Part shown: positions 4,976 to 17,441 of the stretch, one piece after another
How positions within the stretch are numbered: position 1 is the first letter of the stretch
Layout: every line of letters begins with the position of its first letter
Source of the DNA: Hyphomicrobiales bacterium
GTDB lineage: Bacteria; Pseudomonadota; Alphaproteobacteria; Rhizobiales; Rhizobiaceae
Direction: 5' to 3'
Assembly (NCBI GenBank): GCA_900473685.1
Contig: UCNE01000002.1
Coordinates: 1-64,000 of the forward strand
Length of the DNA stretch: 64,000 bases
The notes under the pieces: generated by a model
The model's database searches: none
What the model was told of the DNA's origin: nothing
The model's input: the letters and a program-made list of their open reading frames with translations, nothing else
Made by a program: the position numbers and the translations under genes

Positions 4976-5051
4976 GCCCTTATAGCTCAGTTGGTAGAGC
5001 ACCTGATTTGTAATCAGGGGGTCCCGGGTTCGAGTCCTGGTGGGGGCACCA
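4976..5051 (+). tRNA. tRNA-Thr (anticodon TGT), integration target
   Basis: 76-nt cloverleaf: GCCCTTA acceptor, D arm AGCTCAGTTGGTAGAGC, anticodon stem CTGAT/ATCAG with TGT, T arm GGGTTCGAGTCCT, and encoded CCA. The acceptor has two G-U pairs. The sequence from the anticodon loop to just past CCA recurs at 17390, so an element integrated here and the gene was restored by the element's attachment core. Confidence 0.98.
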
Positions 5052-5057
5052 TTTTTC
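5006..5057 (+). repeat. attL: 52-bp direct repeat inside tRNA-Thr
   Basis: Positions 5006-5057 (anticodon-loop ATTTGTAATC through CACCATTTTTC) are identical to 17390-17441. The flanking bases differ (G before and T after, versus A before and A after). This is the left attachment core of the integrated element. Confidence 0.96.
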
Positions 5058-5142
5058 TTTTCAATGCCTTAGTGGGCATCAGTTAATCTAAAATCTCAAC
5101 TACATTTCTGGTCAGGGTAACGTTTCGGGTAACTGAAGCAGT

Positions 5143-5679
5143 TTAGAGCTTCACCCTTGTCTTGGGCTTATTCGCTGATTTCTTTTTCACAGCAGCTGGC
5201 CGCGCAGCTCGCGCCTTGGCCGCCCGCTCCTTGCGTAGCTCCTCATACAGCCTCTCCAAGTCGGCAAAGGCGTCGTCCATCTCCCTCTCGCCCTTATCGA
5301 TCTGCAGGCGCTGGTCGAGGAGCCTTGACGCTGCCACCTGGAGAGATCCGCGAATCATTTGCCGCCTGGCTAACTGACGCAGCCCCCGGAAAGTCTCGTA
5401 GTCCTCGATCTGATCGTGCTCCAGATGTATCGCGGAGGCAATGGAATATGGAGAAACCCACCTCCCCGCCTTCTTGTCAAAGCTGACTGCAGCGTTGAGC
5501 ACATCGGCGCATTGACCAACTATGTCTTCCGGCCGGCCGGCGCCACGAACCACTCTAATGATGTTCGCGGCCAGTTCAACTAAGGCTTGATCGACAATTT
5601 GCTGCGCAAACCCGGTGTCGATCTGGGTTTGGCTGTTTTCGGCTACGACCTTGAACTTTGGCTTTTCGTCATCTGGCAT
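5143..5679 (-). CDS. Element-encoded hypothetical protein, basic C-terminal tail
   Basis: 178-aa soluble, mostly helical protein of no family I recognise. The ATG at 5679 is preferred over the upstream TTG at 5694 because GGAGG lies 8 nt before it. The central part (about 45-150) is predicted helical, with DQIEDYETFRGLRQLARRQM and a coiled-coil-like stretch EREMDDAFADLERLYEELRKERA. The end is Lys/Ala/Pro-rich (AVKKKSANKPKTRVKL), which could contact nucleic acid. It is the leftmost gene of the element, 86 bp inside attL, a typical cargo position, and lies downstream of the 245-aa gene on the same strand. Confidence 0.72.
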   Translation of the reverse strand: MPDDEKPKFKVVAENSQTQIDTGFAQQIVDQALVELAANIIRVVRGAGRPEDIVGQCADVLNAAVSFDKKAGRWVSPYSIASAIHLEHDQIEDYETFRGLRQLARRQMIRGSLQVAASRLLDQRLQIDKGEREMDDAFADLERLYEELRKERAAKARAARPAAVKKKSANKPKTRVKL

Positions 5680-5774
5680 GCTGTCTGCCTCCAATGGTTG
5701 AAGGCAGAGTGAGCCGACGGTTTGATTAATAGCAAGTCGCCGACCCCTTACTTACCGATATCCACAGCGGCTGG

Positions 5775-6512
5775 TTAAGAACGCCGCCCTTCCAAGTCGG
5801 CGTTCATAAACCAAACGCCGCGGCCGGTTGATGCTGCATGGACGTGGGCGATGAACTTGGACCCTGTGGCTTGATGCCAGTCATCCATGGCATAAGATAG
5901 CTCGTGAGCAAGACGATCGACGCGCGAGACGGGCCGCTGGTCCTCTTCTGGGCTCGCCATAAATCCAAAGCGCAACCGATCAACGTCGGGCCAGATATAC
6001 GCCTGCCATTGGCCGTGGTCGCATTGCGCCATAGTCGCGGCTAGCTCTTTCGCCAAGCGCCTGGCCTTCACCCACGGATCCTGTTTGGCTGCCGCGTCAA
6101 AGTATCCCACCGCGGCGCTAAGAAGGGAACTTACCGATGATGGGCTTGAAAAATTGGTCGTCTCGTCAGCGGCCAAGCGCAAGGCAGCGAGCGCTCCTTC
6201 GAAGGTGGAGGCGGCTCCTGTCCAGTCCTCTATCGCTTTCATAGGACGGCCGTAGGTGTTCTCTGCGGCGGCGTCGCTTTCTTCGTCGGTATTGTAGCGG
6301 CCTGCGTTAAAGGCAGCCGATCCAGCCAGATAACCGTTGACCAGTTCAAGGATTGGATCGACATCCTTCCCCTCCCTGCTTGGAAGACTGTTGCTTCCCA
6401 GAGACGTCATCATCTTTGCTACGTTCCGCGCCACATGGGCCTGGTCATCCGCGATGGTGTTCGGCGCCGCTGGCGTCGCTTTACTTACGGAACGGTTGGA
6501 GTTATTTCGCAT
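5775..6512 (-). CDS. Element-encoded hypothetical protein under three-operator control
   Basis: 245-aa cytoplasmic-looking protein with no recognised domain. The N-terminal 40 residues are Ser/Asn/Ala-rich and probably disordered. The rest contains EDWTGAASTFEGALAALRLAADE, DPWVKARRLAKELAATMAQCD and a C-terminal block GSKFIAHVHAASTGRGVWFMN. Its start at 6512 is only 18 bp from an AACG-N5-CGTT operator array shared with the divergent HTH gene, so it is probably repressed by that protein. It has a better claim to be regulated cargo than a structural gene. Confidence 0.72.
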   Translation of the reverse strand: MRNNSNRSVSKATPAAPNTIADDQAHVARNVAKMMTSLGSNSLPSREGKDVDPILELVNGYLAGSAAFNAGRYNTDEESDAAAENTYGRPMKAIEDWTGAASTFEGALAALRLAADETTNFSSPSSVSSLLSAAVGYFDAAAKQDPWVKARRLAKELAATMAQCDHGQWQAYIWPDVDRLRFGFMASPEEDQRPVSRVDRLAHELSYAMDDWHQATGSKFIAHVHAASTGRGVWFMNADLEGRRS

Positions 6513-15968: not shown

Positions 15969-17223
15969 CATTGGTGTCGGTGCCGTCACCAATGATCCCG
16001 GCCACCATATTTGCCCAGGCCGATAGCGCGCGGCGCTTCTCGTCTGCATAGCTGTACCGGTTATAGGTGGCGGCCACGCCCTTGATGGAGCCGCTCTTGT
16101 GGTTGAGCACGGCCTCGACCACGTGGACCGGGATACTCAACGACGCCATTCCGCTTGCCGCGGTGCGCCGTAGATCGTGGATGCGCCAAGGCGTCGCCGT
16201 AACGGCCTCAGGATCGTCACCACGCTCGGCGGCTTCCTTCTTGGCAATGGACAGCATTTCAGCGTCAAGCCTCTCCTTGGCCTTGGAGAAGCCGGAGATT
16301 GGCGTCTCGCCAGTCGTGGTCAGCAACAGCTTCTTCTTGCCATCAATGACCGGCATTGCGTCGATGATCGAGACGACGGCCGGAGCCAGCGGAACGTGAT
16401 GCTCTTTGCCGTTCTTGGCTCGCTCCTTGGGGATGGTCCACAGAGGCTGTTCGACCTTGAGGCTAAACTCGGTACGGGATGCTCCGGCCACTTCCTCGCG
16501 GCGCTGGCCGGTCAAGAGCAGCAGTTGCGTCATGGTGCCGAACGGCCAGCCCACGGCCTTAGCGGCCTTCCACACGAGCCGCAGCTCATCGTCAGCGAGA
16601 ACACGGTCCCGGCTAGTCTCCTGCCCCTGCGCCTTTACGTTGACCGCCGGCGATGCTGTGATGATGTCGCGCTCGATAGCCCAGTTGAAGAATTTGCGAA
16701 GCAGCGCCAGCACCCGGTTCGCCATGATCGGTGCGCCCCGGTCGTTGATGTCATCGAGCAGGCCGATGATCTCCCGACGCGTAATGCTCTGTACCTGGCG
16801 CCCTTTCCACTTCGGCTTGATCTCGGCCTCGATAATGCGACGGCTTTCTTTTGCCGACGAGGCCTTGTTCTTCACGTCGACATGGCGGGTCAGGAAGTCA
16901 TCAAGGATCGTTTCGATTTGGTTTTGCTCGGCCCCTTGGATTGACCGGGCGAGCCTCTTCTCGTCTCCAGGGTCCCTGCCCTCGGCCACGGCCCGAAGCG
17001 CAATGCCGGCGGATTTCCGAGCGTCAGCCAGCCCAAAGCGCGGATAGGCACCGATGGTGTGTTTTTTTGTTTTGCCGCCAAACCGATACCGGACAGCCCA
17101 GCTCATTGCGCCAGACGGCTGCACCACGAGGTAAAGGCCAGGCAGACCGCCATCGGGGATTTCACGGCGCGAGATATCCGCTTTCAACGCCTCGATCGAT
17201 TTTACTGTGAGCGCTTTTGCCAT
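15940..17223 (-). CDS. int: P4-type tyrosine integrase (DUF4102 arm-binding domain)
   Basis: 427-aa site-specific recombinase. The N-terminal arm-binding domain (1-90, LTVKSIEALKADISRREIPD, LYLVVQPSGAMSWAVRYRFGG, IGAYPRFGLADARKSA) is that of P4-like integrases. A SAM-like core-binding domain spans about 100-190. The catalytic domain shows R241 (TGQRREEVA), H349-x-x-R352 (HDLRRTAA), H375 (LNHKSG) and the probable nucleophile Y387 (ATYNRYSY). The residues and full length argue for activity. It reads inward from attR, and its target is the tRNA-Thr 3' half. Confidence 0.95.
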   Translation of the reverse strand: MAKALTVKSIEALKADISRREIPDGGLPGLYLVVQPSGAMSWAVRYRFGGKTKKHTIGAYPRFGLADARKSAGIALRAVAEGRDPGDEKRLARSIQGAEQNQIETILDDFLTRHVDVKNKASSAKESRRIIEAEIKPKWKGRQVQSITRREIIGLLDDINDRGAPIMANRVLALLRKFFNWAIERDIITASPAVNVKAQGQETSRDRVLADDELRLVWKAAKAVGWPFGTMTQLLLLTGQRREEVAGASRTEFSLKVEQPLWTIPKERAKNGKEHHVPLAPAVVSIIDAMPVIDGKKKLLLTTTGETPISGFSKAKERLDAEMLSIAKKEAAERGDDPEAVTATPWRIHDLRRTAASGMASLSIPVHVVEAVLNHKSGSIKGVAATYNRYSYADEKRRALSAWANMVAGIIGDGTDTNVISIVRASQ

Positions 17224-17232
17224 TGCCTTGCC

Positions 17233-17380
17233 TTCAGGGGTAACATCCGGGTATCAAAATTGGATGGTAGGATATGTTAGCTCCTGATGTTATCAAGGTA
17301 AATTATTCGAACTGCAAGCCTTATTTTTCAGGGGTTTTATGATGACGTTTGGGGGATGCTGATATATGTCAGGGGGTAAC
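17233..17380 (+). repeat. Putative integrase arm-type sites beside attR
   Basis: TTCAGGGGTAAC at 17233-17244 and GTCAGGGGGTAAC at 17368-17380 flank the integrase start and attR. Related copies TCAGGGTAAC (5112-5121) and TTCGGGTAAC (5124-5133) lie just inside attL. Direct repeats of one short motif near both att cores are the usual layout of arm-type binding sites for the integrase N-terminal domain. Confidence 0.6.
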
Positions 17381-17389
17381 AGGCCTCTA

Positions 17390-17441
17390 ATTTGTAATCA
17401 GGGGGTCCCGGGTTCGAGTCCTGGTGGGGGCACCATTTTTC
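17390..17441 (+). repeat. attR: 52-bp direct repeat with 3' tRNA-Thr fragment
   Basis: Identical to 5006-5057. It holds only the anticodon loop to CCA of tRNA-Thr, with no D arm or 5' acceptor strand, so it is a tRNA fragment and not a gene. It marks the right end of the integrated element. Confidence 0.96.

Follow-up and report, generated by a model that had tools for sequence, protein, structure and literature searches.

The window analysed here is a 64,000-nucleotide stretch of the genome of an alphaproteobacterium (Hyphomicrobiales bacterium, contig UCNE01000002.1, positions 1 to 64,000), and it contains a 12,384-bp element, integrated at a tRNA-Thr gene, that is probably a member of an apparently undescribed family of satellites of alphaproteobacterial podoviruses. 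The support for this reading lies in the anatomy of the element and the conservation of its genes across genomes, from which we infer capture of a helper shell, packaging, and entry of the resulting particles. An initial annotation had described 52-bp att repeats, a full integrase, regulator and operator modules, a DUF1376 gene and an eight-gene leftward operon encoding an 820-aa protein, an anatomy that the repeats, Pfam matches and open reading frames (ORFs) bear out.

The att direct repeat (5003-5057 and 17387-17441) is identical at 54 of 55 positions and perfect over a 52-bp core (attL, 5006-5057; attR, 17390-17441); the spacing of the two cores, 12,384 bp, is the size of the element. The left copy completes the tRNA-Thr(TGT) gene located by ARAGORN at 4976-5051 on the forward strand, which is the integration site, and the tRNA gene ends in the 52-bp stretch. 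A full-length tyrosine integrase is encoded at 15940-17223 on the reverse strand (Pfam Arm-DNA-bind_3, expectation value (E) 4.7e-19; Phage_integrase, 8.5e-13), and the leftward operon of eight genes runs from 14013 down to 7995 with reading frames open throughout. An integrase with att repeats and a compact size are general features of satellites.

A family of compact elements

Homologues of one operon gene, g184, are present at ten loci in total: six compact capsid-less elements, two podovirus prophages (genomes G610 and G867), a 10.8-kb contig (G1091) and a 19.3-kb locus at tRNA-Lys that has 47-bp repeats and contains insertion sequences (G882). The compact elements are that of the window (tRNA-Thr, 52-bp repeats, 12,384 bp) and those of G129 (tRNA-Glu, 48-bp repeats, 13,257 bp), Aquibium sp. 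ELW1220 (G257; tRNA-Glu, 53-bp repeats, 11,823 bp), a Mesorhizobium metagenome-assembled genome (MESO; tRNA-Glu, 50-bp repeats, 12,440 bp), G273 (tRNA-Ser, 14-bp repeats, 11,838 bp) and G441 (tRNA-Ser, 14-bp repeats, 12,184 bp). The 14-bp repeats are short, yet each starts within the 3′ end of the tRNA gene. The integrases of the six elements are only distantly related. Their mean size is 12,321 bp with a standard deviation of 528 bp (a scatter of 4%), in a small sample (n=6) collected through g184 and g244. The mean includes G129 despite a remnant of an IS66-like transposase (by eye) in its accessory part, and excludes G882 for its insertion sequences, G1091 for its contig end, and three elements with TerS and TerL genes and no g184 (G057, 9,854 bp; G036, 15,843 bp; G127, 20,621 bp); the ends of loci G113, G155 and G111 are undefined.

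Six elements of similar size that share core genes support the proposal of the initial annotation that the window element is a satellite and not a one-off deletion, and contradict one of its conditions for refutation, that all relatives be full-size prophages and the window element a unique deletion; two g184 homologues nonetheless sit in full-size-looking podovirus prophages (G610, G867). The gene order that was to be sought at tRNA-Thr in other rhizobia does recur, but the relatives sit at tRNA-Glu and tRNA-Ser. No relative of the g244 or g184 proteins was found in viral contigs or phage records, nor of the fibre, g200 or g148 in phage records, nor of three core-protein alignments (A1, A3, A7) in viral contigs.

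No recognised head or tail-tube genes

Pfam and PHROGs scans were made of 19 predicted proteins of the element and NCBIfam scans of ten of these. At the thresholds used, no capsid, portal, large terminase (TerL), tube or tape measure protein was recognised among the 19 by Pfam or PHROGs. The only leftward-strand ORFs longer than 250 aa are those of the integrase (427 aa), the spike (820 aa) and an N-terminally extended frame of g217 (333 aa); the other strand has one, of 255 aa, lying against the integrase gene. Portals of related podoviruses are 510-591 aa long, and a six-frame search of the whole host genome gave 0 matches to their portal family phrog_332. The initial annotation had likewise listed all five components as missing, and a cryptic capsid, portal or TerL within the element was looked for and not found. 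The element lacks the set of TerL, portal, capsid, tube A and nozzle by which a podovirus prophage was recognised, for which G610 (all five) and G867 (portal, capsid and tube A) were positive controls, and it lacks the capsid, portal and connectors of a capsid-forming phage-inducible chromosomal island (cfPICI). A listing of the long ORFs of the six compact elements accounts for every one of at least 500 aa, as a spike, TerL, tail lysozyme, internal virion protein or phrog_1044 protein, which leaves no unassigned ORF of the length expected of a portal. Two of the other proteins are as long as a capsid protein (G129, 370 aa; G441, 299 aa), and neither had a PHROG match. Having no capsid, no portal and no complete set of tail genes is a further general feature of phage satellites, and the window element, in which none of these was recognised, conforms to it.

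The conserved core block

The gene g184 is common to all six compact elements, and the ordered block g200-g217-g184-g244 to five of them. In the window the block occupies 13411-14013 (g200), 12795-13448 (g217), 12295-12849 (g184, whose start is uncertain, the ORF extending to 12885) and 11564-12298 (g244) on the reverse strand, and the four genes are consecutive and in the same order in G129, G257 and G273. The MESO core was recognised with profiles built without MESO (g200, 4.5e-11; g217, 3.5e-32; g184, 5.2e-65) and by tblastn (g244, 9.7e-32); here the TerS-like gene is separated from g217 by an inserted 510-aa TerL (phrog_2, E 2e-27). The g184 match of G441 is clear (8.7e-32), the next gene (162 aa) matches the g244 profile weakly (4.5e-5 over 571 ORFs), and a 299-aa gene before g184 is TerS-like by eye only. 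The G882 locus gave profile matches to g217 (8.2e-20) and g184 (1.7e-8) and has a weak g244 counterpart (0.0013). The structural model of g184 is poor (pLDDT 47.5).

The product of g200 is called TerS-like because its homologues adjoin TerL in relatives. A search of 151 genomes of the family gave eight matches, two of them known members; at four of the six further loci a TerL with 41-47% sequence identity to that of MESO follows directly or one small gene or gap on, at the fifth a related TerL lies 6 kb away, and at the sixth, a 4.1-kb contig, no TerL was found within 3.5 kb downstream. Excerpts of a study of PhiGT1 describe an assignment of TerS by this same argument, and a high turnover of TerS (PMC10386132). 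This context of the 200-aa protein had been overlooked in the initial annotation, as had the nature of the gene at 8274-8675 described below.

A probable scaffold-like motif in g244

Sequence comparison gives moderate support to the view that g244 probably carries a motif of roughly 34 residues (about residues 38-70 in the window protein) otherwise found where podovirus scaffolding proteins end, at their C-terminus. Run over 6,244 ORFs of the fetched loci, a profile built from five g244 sequences picked up the G610 scaffolding protein (0.0016) and, with a weak score, its G867 counterpart (0.087), in both of which the motif lies at the extreme C-terminus. The scaffold gene sits between those of portal and capsid, and a partial homologue (28% identity) in Pelagibacter phage Baldr is annotated as a capsid assembly protein. 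The G610 and G867 scaffolds were first noticed through the g244 motif profile; six more were fetched from viral contigs by scaffold similarity only, making eight. When the eight C-termini were made into a profile, g244 of G273 came first (E 0.0082) and g244 of the window second (0.025) among 571 element ORFs, and none of 200 shuffles reached 0.025, the best g244 value being 0.048. When g244 was aligned unforced by hhalign to the full alignment of the eight scaffolds, residues 29-71 fell on columns 271-317 of 327 (P 2.3e-4); with the scaffold C-termini alone, P was 2e-5 and the hhalign probability 77. A four-sequence phage-side profile returned g244 proteins as its top four of 571 ORFs (E 4.9e-7, 2.4e-6, 1.7e-5 and 1.1e-3), and none of 200 column shuffles placed more than two there, a test that is partly circular because two of the four sequences were chosen through matches to the g244 motif profile. 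The scaffolds of other podovirus lineages (two further loci in G882, one in G867) did not match the motif.

The model of g244 (pLDDT 73) is all helix, with the motif spanning three short helices; structure searches of BFVD and PDB with this model produced no convincing match (best E 0.32 and 0.31, respectively), and the protein had one chance-level match (0.55) among solved-structure sequences. There is a precedent for a scaffold mimic in CpmB of the staphylococcal island SaPI1, which, as excerpts of the source describe, shares a C-terminal RIIK motif with the scaffold of phage 80alpha and competes with that scaffold for the capsid protein (PMC5644958). Further proteins of the G610 prophage (locus L025, 6392-7378; locus L024, 19290-19637) bear a scaffold-like motif near their ends; the motif may serve as a tag for loading cargo into procapsids.

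Podovirus-type genes and the variable slot

The core is linked to podoviruses through g184, which matches phrog_26742 (9.2e-6). In G610 a g217 homologue is followed by a gene with 54% identity to g184, behind genes for an internal virion protein and the nozzle, and in G867 a phrog_26742 protein (2.2e-22) is encoded between capsid and tail tube A. According to PHROGs, G610 encodes TerL, portal (phrog_332), capsid (phrog_3437), tube A, an internal virion protein and a nozzle-type tail protein (phrog_376), and G867 encodes portal, capsid and tube A, its TerL having been placed by eye; the ends of both prophages are undefined.

Behind the core is a slot that carries virion-type genes in four of the six compact elements. 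In the window it holds the 820-aa tailspike-like protein (9090-11552, reverse strand), which matches tail fiber family phrog_5073 (9.8e-5) and, below the family cut-off, CBM_5_12 (0.002), followed on the same strand by g148 (8639-9085), g133 (8274-8675) and the last gene of the operon, g90 (7995-8267). The g133 protein matches the C-terminal end of the podovirus virion protein phrog_684 (positions 716-825 of 840, E 4.6e-16), and tblastn matched it to 34 phage records, epsilon15-like podoviruses among them. Its homologue in locus L010 (52% identity) is fused to a homologue of g148 (36% identity); a phrog_684 end fused to a g148 homologue is found in G273, and the end is present in two family members, the window element and G273. 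Elsewhere the slot contains a 989-aa internal virion protein with an endolysin domain (G441; phrog_342, 4.2e-101), an 870-aa protein in which a phage tail lysozyme domain was recognised (G257; 5.5e-28), or nothing recognised, as among the few MESO proteins scanned. Because the content of the slot varies, the fibre does not define the family, and the proposal of the initial annotation is only partly supported. The spike, g184 and the 989-aa protein of G441 had no match among solved-structure sequences. In the window element the spike might, as the initial annotation suggested, redirect helper particles to new hosts.

Helpers and prophages at the same site

The phrog_332 portal was sought in ten genomes and found in G610, G867 and G882, and none of 14 standard controls matched; it was not found in G1091. 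A second search for resident helpers found none, and its controls were also without any match. The genome of G882 contains, besides its family member broken by insertion sequences, two podoviral portal loci, possibly a natural helper-satellite pair.

The same tRNA-Thr site is occupied in two sister genomes (G016:C2 and G019:C101; loci L097-L102) by prophages with att copies 45-49 kb apart that are long-tailed by eye; as parents of the window element they were dropped on account of that distance and tail type. The G016 prophage shares early genes g62 and g78 with the window element, and in G019 an integrase with 28% identity lies just past the second att copy. Shared host DNA resumes about 0.8 kb past the second att copy in G016, compared with 4.4 kb in the window, where the extra DNA (17442-21838) comprises a dioxygenase-like gene (by eye) and a broken stretch that resembles the end of the 820-aa spike (19133-19513, reverse strand, 1.7 kb outside attR; 33% identity, E 4.5e-7). 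The similarity of this remnant to the spike suggests that the site had already received an insertion before.

A wider circle of elements lacks g184. The G057 element has TerS and TerL homologues between 48-bp repeats at tRNA-Glu; the G036 element has 37-bp repeats at tRNA-Ser, a tail fibre (phrog_12796, 1.6e-31) and early genes in common with the window; and the G127 element, at tRNA-Cys, has TerS, TerL, a tape measure (4.3e-52), a tail completion protein (1.1e-15) and a chaperone (3.5e-9). Between TerL and the tape measure of G127 (loci L065/L066), no long leftward ORF for a portal or capsid was seen by eye, in an inspection short of a scan of every ORF. These elements suggest that satellites bearing tail parts may be a broader habit of the bacterial family of the host.

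Proposed life cycle and alternative explanations

Upon infection or induction by a podovirus helper, the satellite would excise and replicate by means of its own early genes. The TerS-like g200 protein would steer packaging toward satellite DNA, g244 would bind the major capsid protein of the helper via the scaffold-like motif so that the shell is captured or resized, g184 and g217 might join or guide assembly, and the variable slot would equip the satellite particle for entry, in the window element with a tailspike and the terminal part of an ejection protein. Such a strategy, in which a podovirus shell is taken by a scaffold mimic and combined with the satellite's own packaging specificity and its own parts for adsorption and DNA delivery, would be roughly the mirror image of a cfPICI; we regard it as tentative, somewhat short of an even chance. 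The elements of G036 and G127, joined to the mirror-image reading at that same guarded level, could follow the same plan with long-tailed helpers.

Several observations weigh against the satellite reading. The phrog_332 portal was not found in the genome of any of the six hosts of compact elements, which implies that none of them has a resident podovirus helper with that portal family; the helpers are possibly incoming phages or phages with another portal family. The family is rare: among 394 genomes of the host's bacterial family g244 matched in 4 (the window genome included), and within the genus in 1 of 26 (the window genome only), and alignment searches with g184 found it in 3 of 397 genomes of the order (the window genome included), in 3 of the 301 genomes related to G257 and in 4 of 385 genomes of the class, samples that overlap, and at two loci, G257 and MESO, in the GTDB contig set. 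At 19.3 kb with insertion sequences the G882 member is not compact; G441 has no g200 or g217 match at 0.1 in the profile search; no entry part was recognised in G129, four other proteins of which were scanned; and with both g184 and g217 also found in a phage-like prophage, the core is not exclusive to satellites. As to the motif, the g244 profile matches non-scaffold proteins of G610 better than or equally to the scaffold (2.2e-4, 2.5e-4, 0.0035 and 0.0044), the eight-scaffold profile ranks g244 of MESO only seventh (2.8) and those of G257 and G129 outside the best 12, 3 of 200 shuffles of this profile put at least two g244 proteins in the top four as the real one does, and the hhalign probability of g244 against the full scaffold alignment is only 44.

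In an alternative explanation, deletions have reduced a podovirus-like prophage to an island that is now decaying or domesticated, its relatives being further remnants of independent origin. This is in keeping with the correspondence of g133 to no more than the end of a virion protein of 840 residues, with the g184 and g217 homologues of a podovirus prophage, with the lack of a phrog_332 portal in the genome and with the decayed spike end just outside attR. Against it stand six compact elements of similar size that have core genes in common at different sites, with distantly related integrases; reading frames are uninterrupted in the core, searches of viral contigs and phage records with the core proteins yielded no phage that carries it, and the shortened ejection end, 52% identical and fused to the g148 homologue, recurs in another genus, which suggests that it is kept as such. 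Reduction by deletion is accordingly unlikely. A satellite of long-tailed phages is more improbable still: g62 and g78 have homologues in the sister-genome prophage at the same tRNA-Thr, and an element that encodes a tape measure and a tail completion protein contains TerS-TerL homologues, so that early and packaging genes are shared with long-tail-type elements and prophages, but the late genes are of podovirus type (phrog_684, phrog_342, phrog_26742 and the scaffold motif). The entry-type proteins without a capsid in several members could also belong to an integrative island that makes a weapon or host-surface enzyme out of a tailspike, lysozyme or ejection protein and transfers no particle; with no tail tube or baseplate recognised, and a TerS-like gene in five of six elements and a TerL in one pointing to DNA packaging, we consider this very improbable. 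The podovirus satellite thus remains the explanation that we favour.

Other genes of the element

The remaining genes are regulatory, early or accessory. Ahead of the gene for a regulator of the HTH_3 family (6596-6859, forward strand; Pfam 1e-6) lie two operator-like palindromes with a spacing of 48 bp (6530-6592), with two matches to TAACGATTTTCGTTA at up to two mismatches where 0.01 would be expected. The early region upstream of g200 encodes, on the reverse strand, g78 (14292-14528; homologues in locus L064 and the G016 prophage), a primosomal-type DUF1376 protein (14447-15112; Pfam 7.6e-13), g62 (15109-15297; phrog_24797; 58% identical homologue in L064) and an AlpA/excisionase-like protein (15294-15482; phrog_1553, phrog_66), and on the forward strand a regulator resembling the RHH type (15567-15968; phrog_32935, 4.6e-8; 45% identical homologue in L064). 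Near attL are the accessory genes g183 (5143-5679 within an ORF at 5143-5694, reverse strand), which matches no family, and g245 (5775-6512, reverse strand), with partial homologues in loci L010 and L064, followed beyond the HTH_3 gene by g104 (6947-7261 within an ORF from 6917, forward strand), to which no function is assigned, and a gene for a lipoprotein-like product (by eye; 7454-7879, forward strand; phrog_3716 of unknown function, E 9.2e-29). When eight window proteins were screened for defence cargo with PADLOC, the HTH regulator was the sole match, to regulator models. The variable end of the MESO element (locus L018, 13967-14620, reverse strand) encodes a PD-T7-4-like anti-phage protein (E 4.1e-20; PADLOC, two relative proteins).

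Relation to known satellites

P4-like satellites are about 12 kb in size, integrate at tRNA genes and have an AlpA-like regulator, all of which is true of the window element; their marker genes are Psu, Delta, Sid, Epsilon and the alpha primase-helicase, and no P4-named family matched in the Pfam, PHROGs and NCBIfam scans, the presence of each P4 gene in these libraries being unchecked. Phage-inducible chromosomal islands (PICIs), including the SaPIs, are marked by Stl, Ppi and Cpm; no named PICI match was obtained in the Pfam and PHROGs scans of 19 proteins or the NCBIfam scan of ten, all made with general models and not with dedicated PICI ones. Like SaPIs and PICIs, the element has its own TerS-like gene and, in the scaffold-motif protein, a candidate redirector of capsids comparable to CpmB; unlike them, it carries tailspike and ejection genes and podovirus-type late genes. 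PLE and PICMI satellites have marker genes of their own and Vibrio hosts, unlike the alphaproteobacterial host of the window element.

Excerpts of one source describe cfPICIs as taking tails while encoding the capsid, portal, protease, connectors and terminase themselves, and MiniFlayer, a Streptomyces satellite, as having its own tail fibre gene together with capsid and packaging genes (PMC10690885). The element resembles cfPICIs as an integrative satellite supplying part of the particle, one family member (MESO) having TerL beside a TerS-like gene, and differs in that entry parts are present while no capsid or portal was found in it. It resembles MiniFlayer in bringing a tail fibre gene and differs in that MiniFlayer has capsid and packaging genes, has no lysogeny module and attaches to its helper. 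With epsilon15-like podoviruses (phiV10; also Tr60_Ab31) it shares, in g133, the end of their large virion protein, and in these phages the internal virion proteins come before the fibre; they are complete phages, unlike the element, which lacks head, portal and nozzle. A PICI whose helper, vB_EcoP_Kapi1, is a podovirus by name appears in excerpts of another report (PMC11773190), and a 2026 abstract describes the typical satellite as being without structural genes (PMC13376191). Among the matches listed in a search of open-licence papers, which may miss cases, there was no satellite combining entry parts with the lack of a head, and no alphaproteobacterial case.

In the papers found, as far as their excerpts describe, satellites either have no virion parts or supply the head. 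If the proposed reading is true, packaging specificity and entry parts without a head would fill the missing case, entry and the shell would come under separate control, and podoviruses would be added to the known instance of scaffold mimicry, that of SaPI1 and phage 80alpha.

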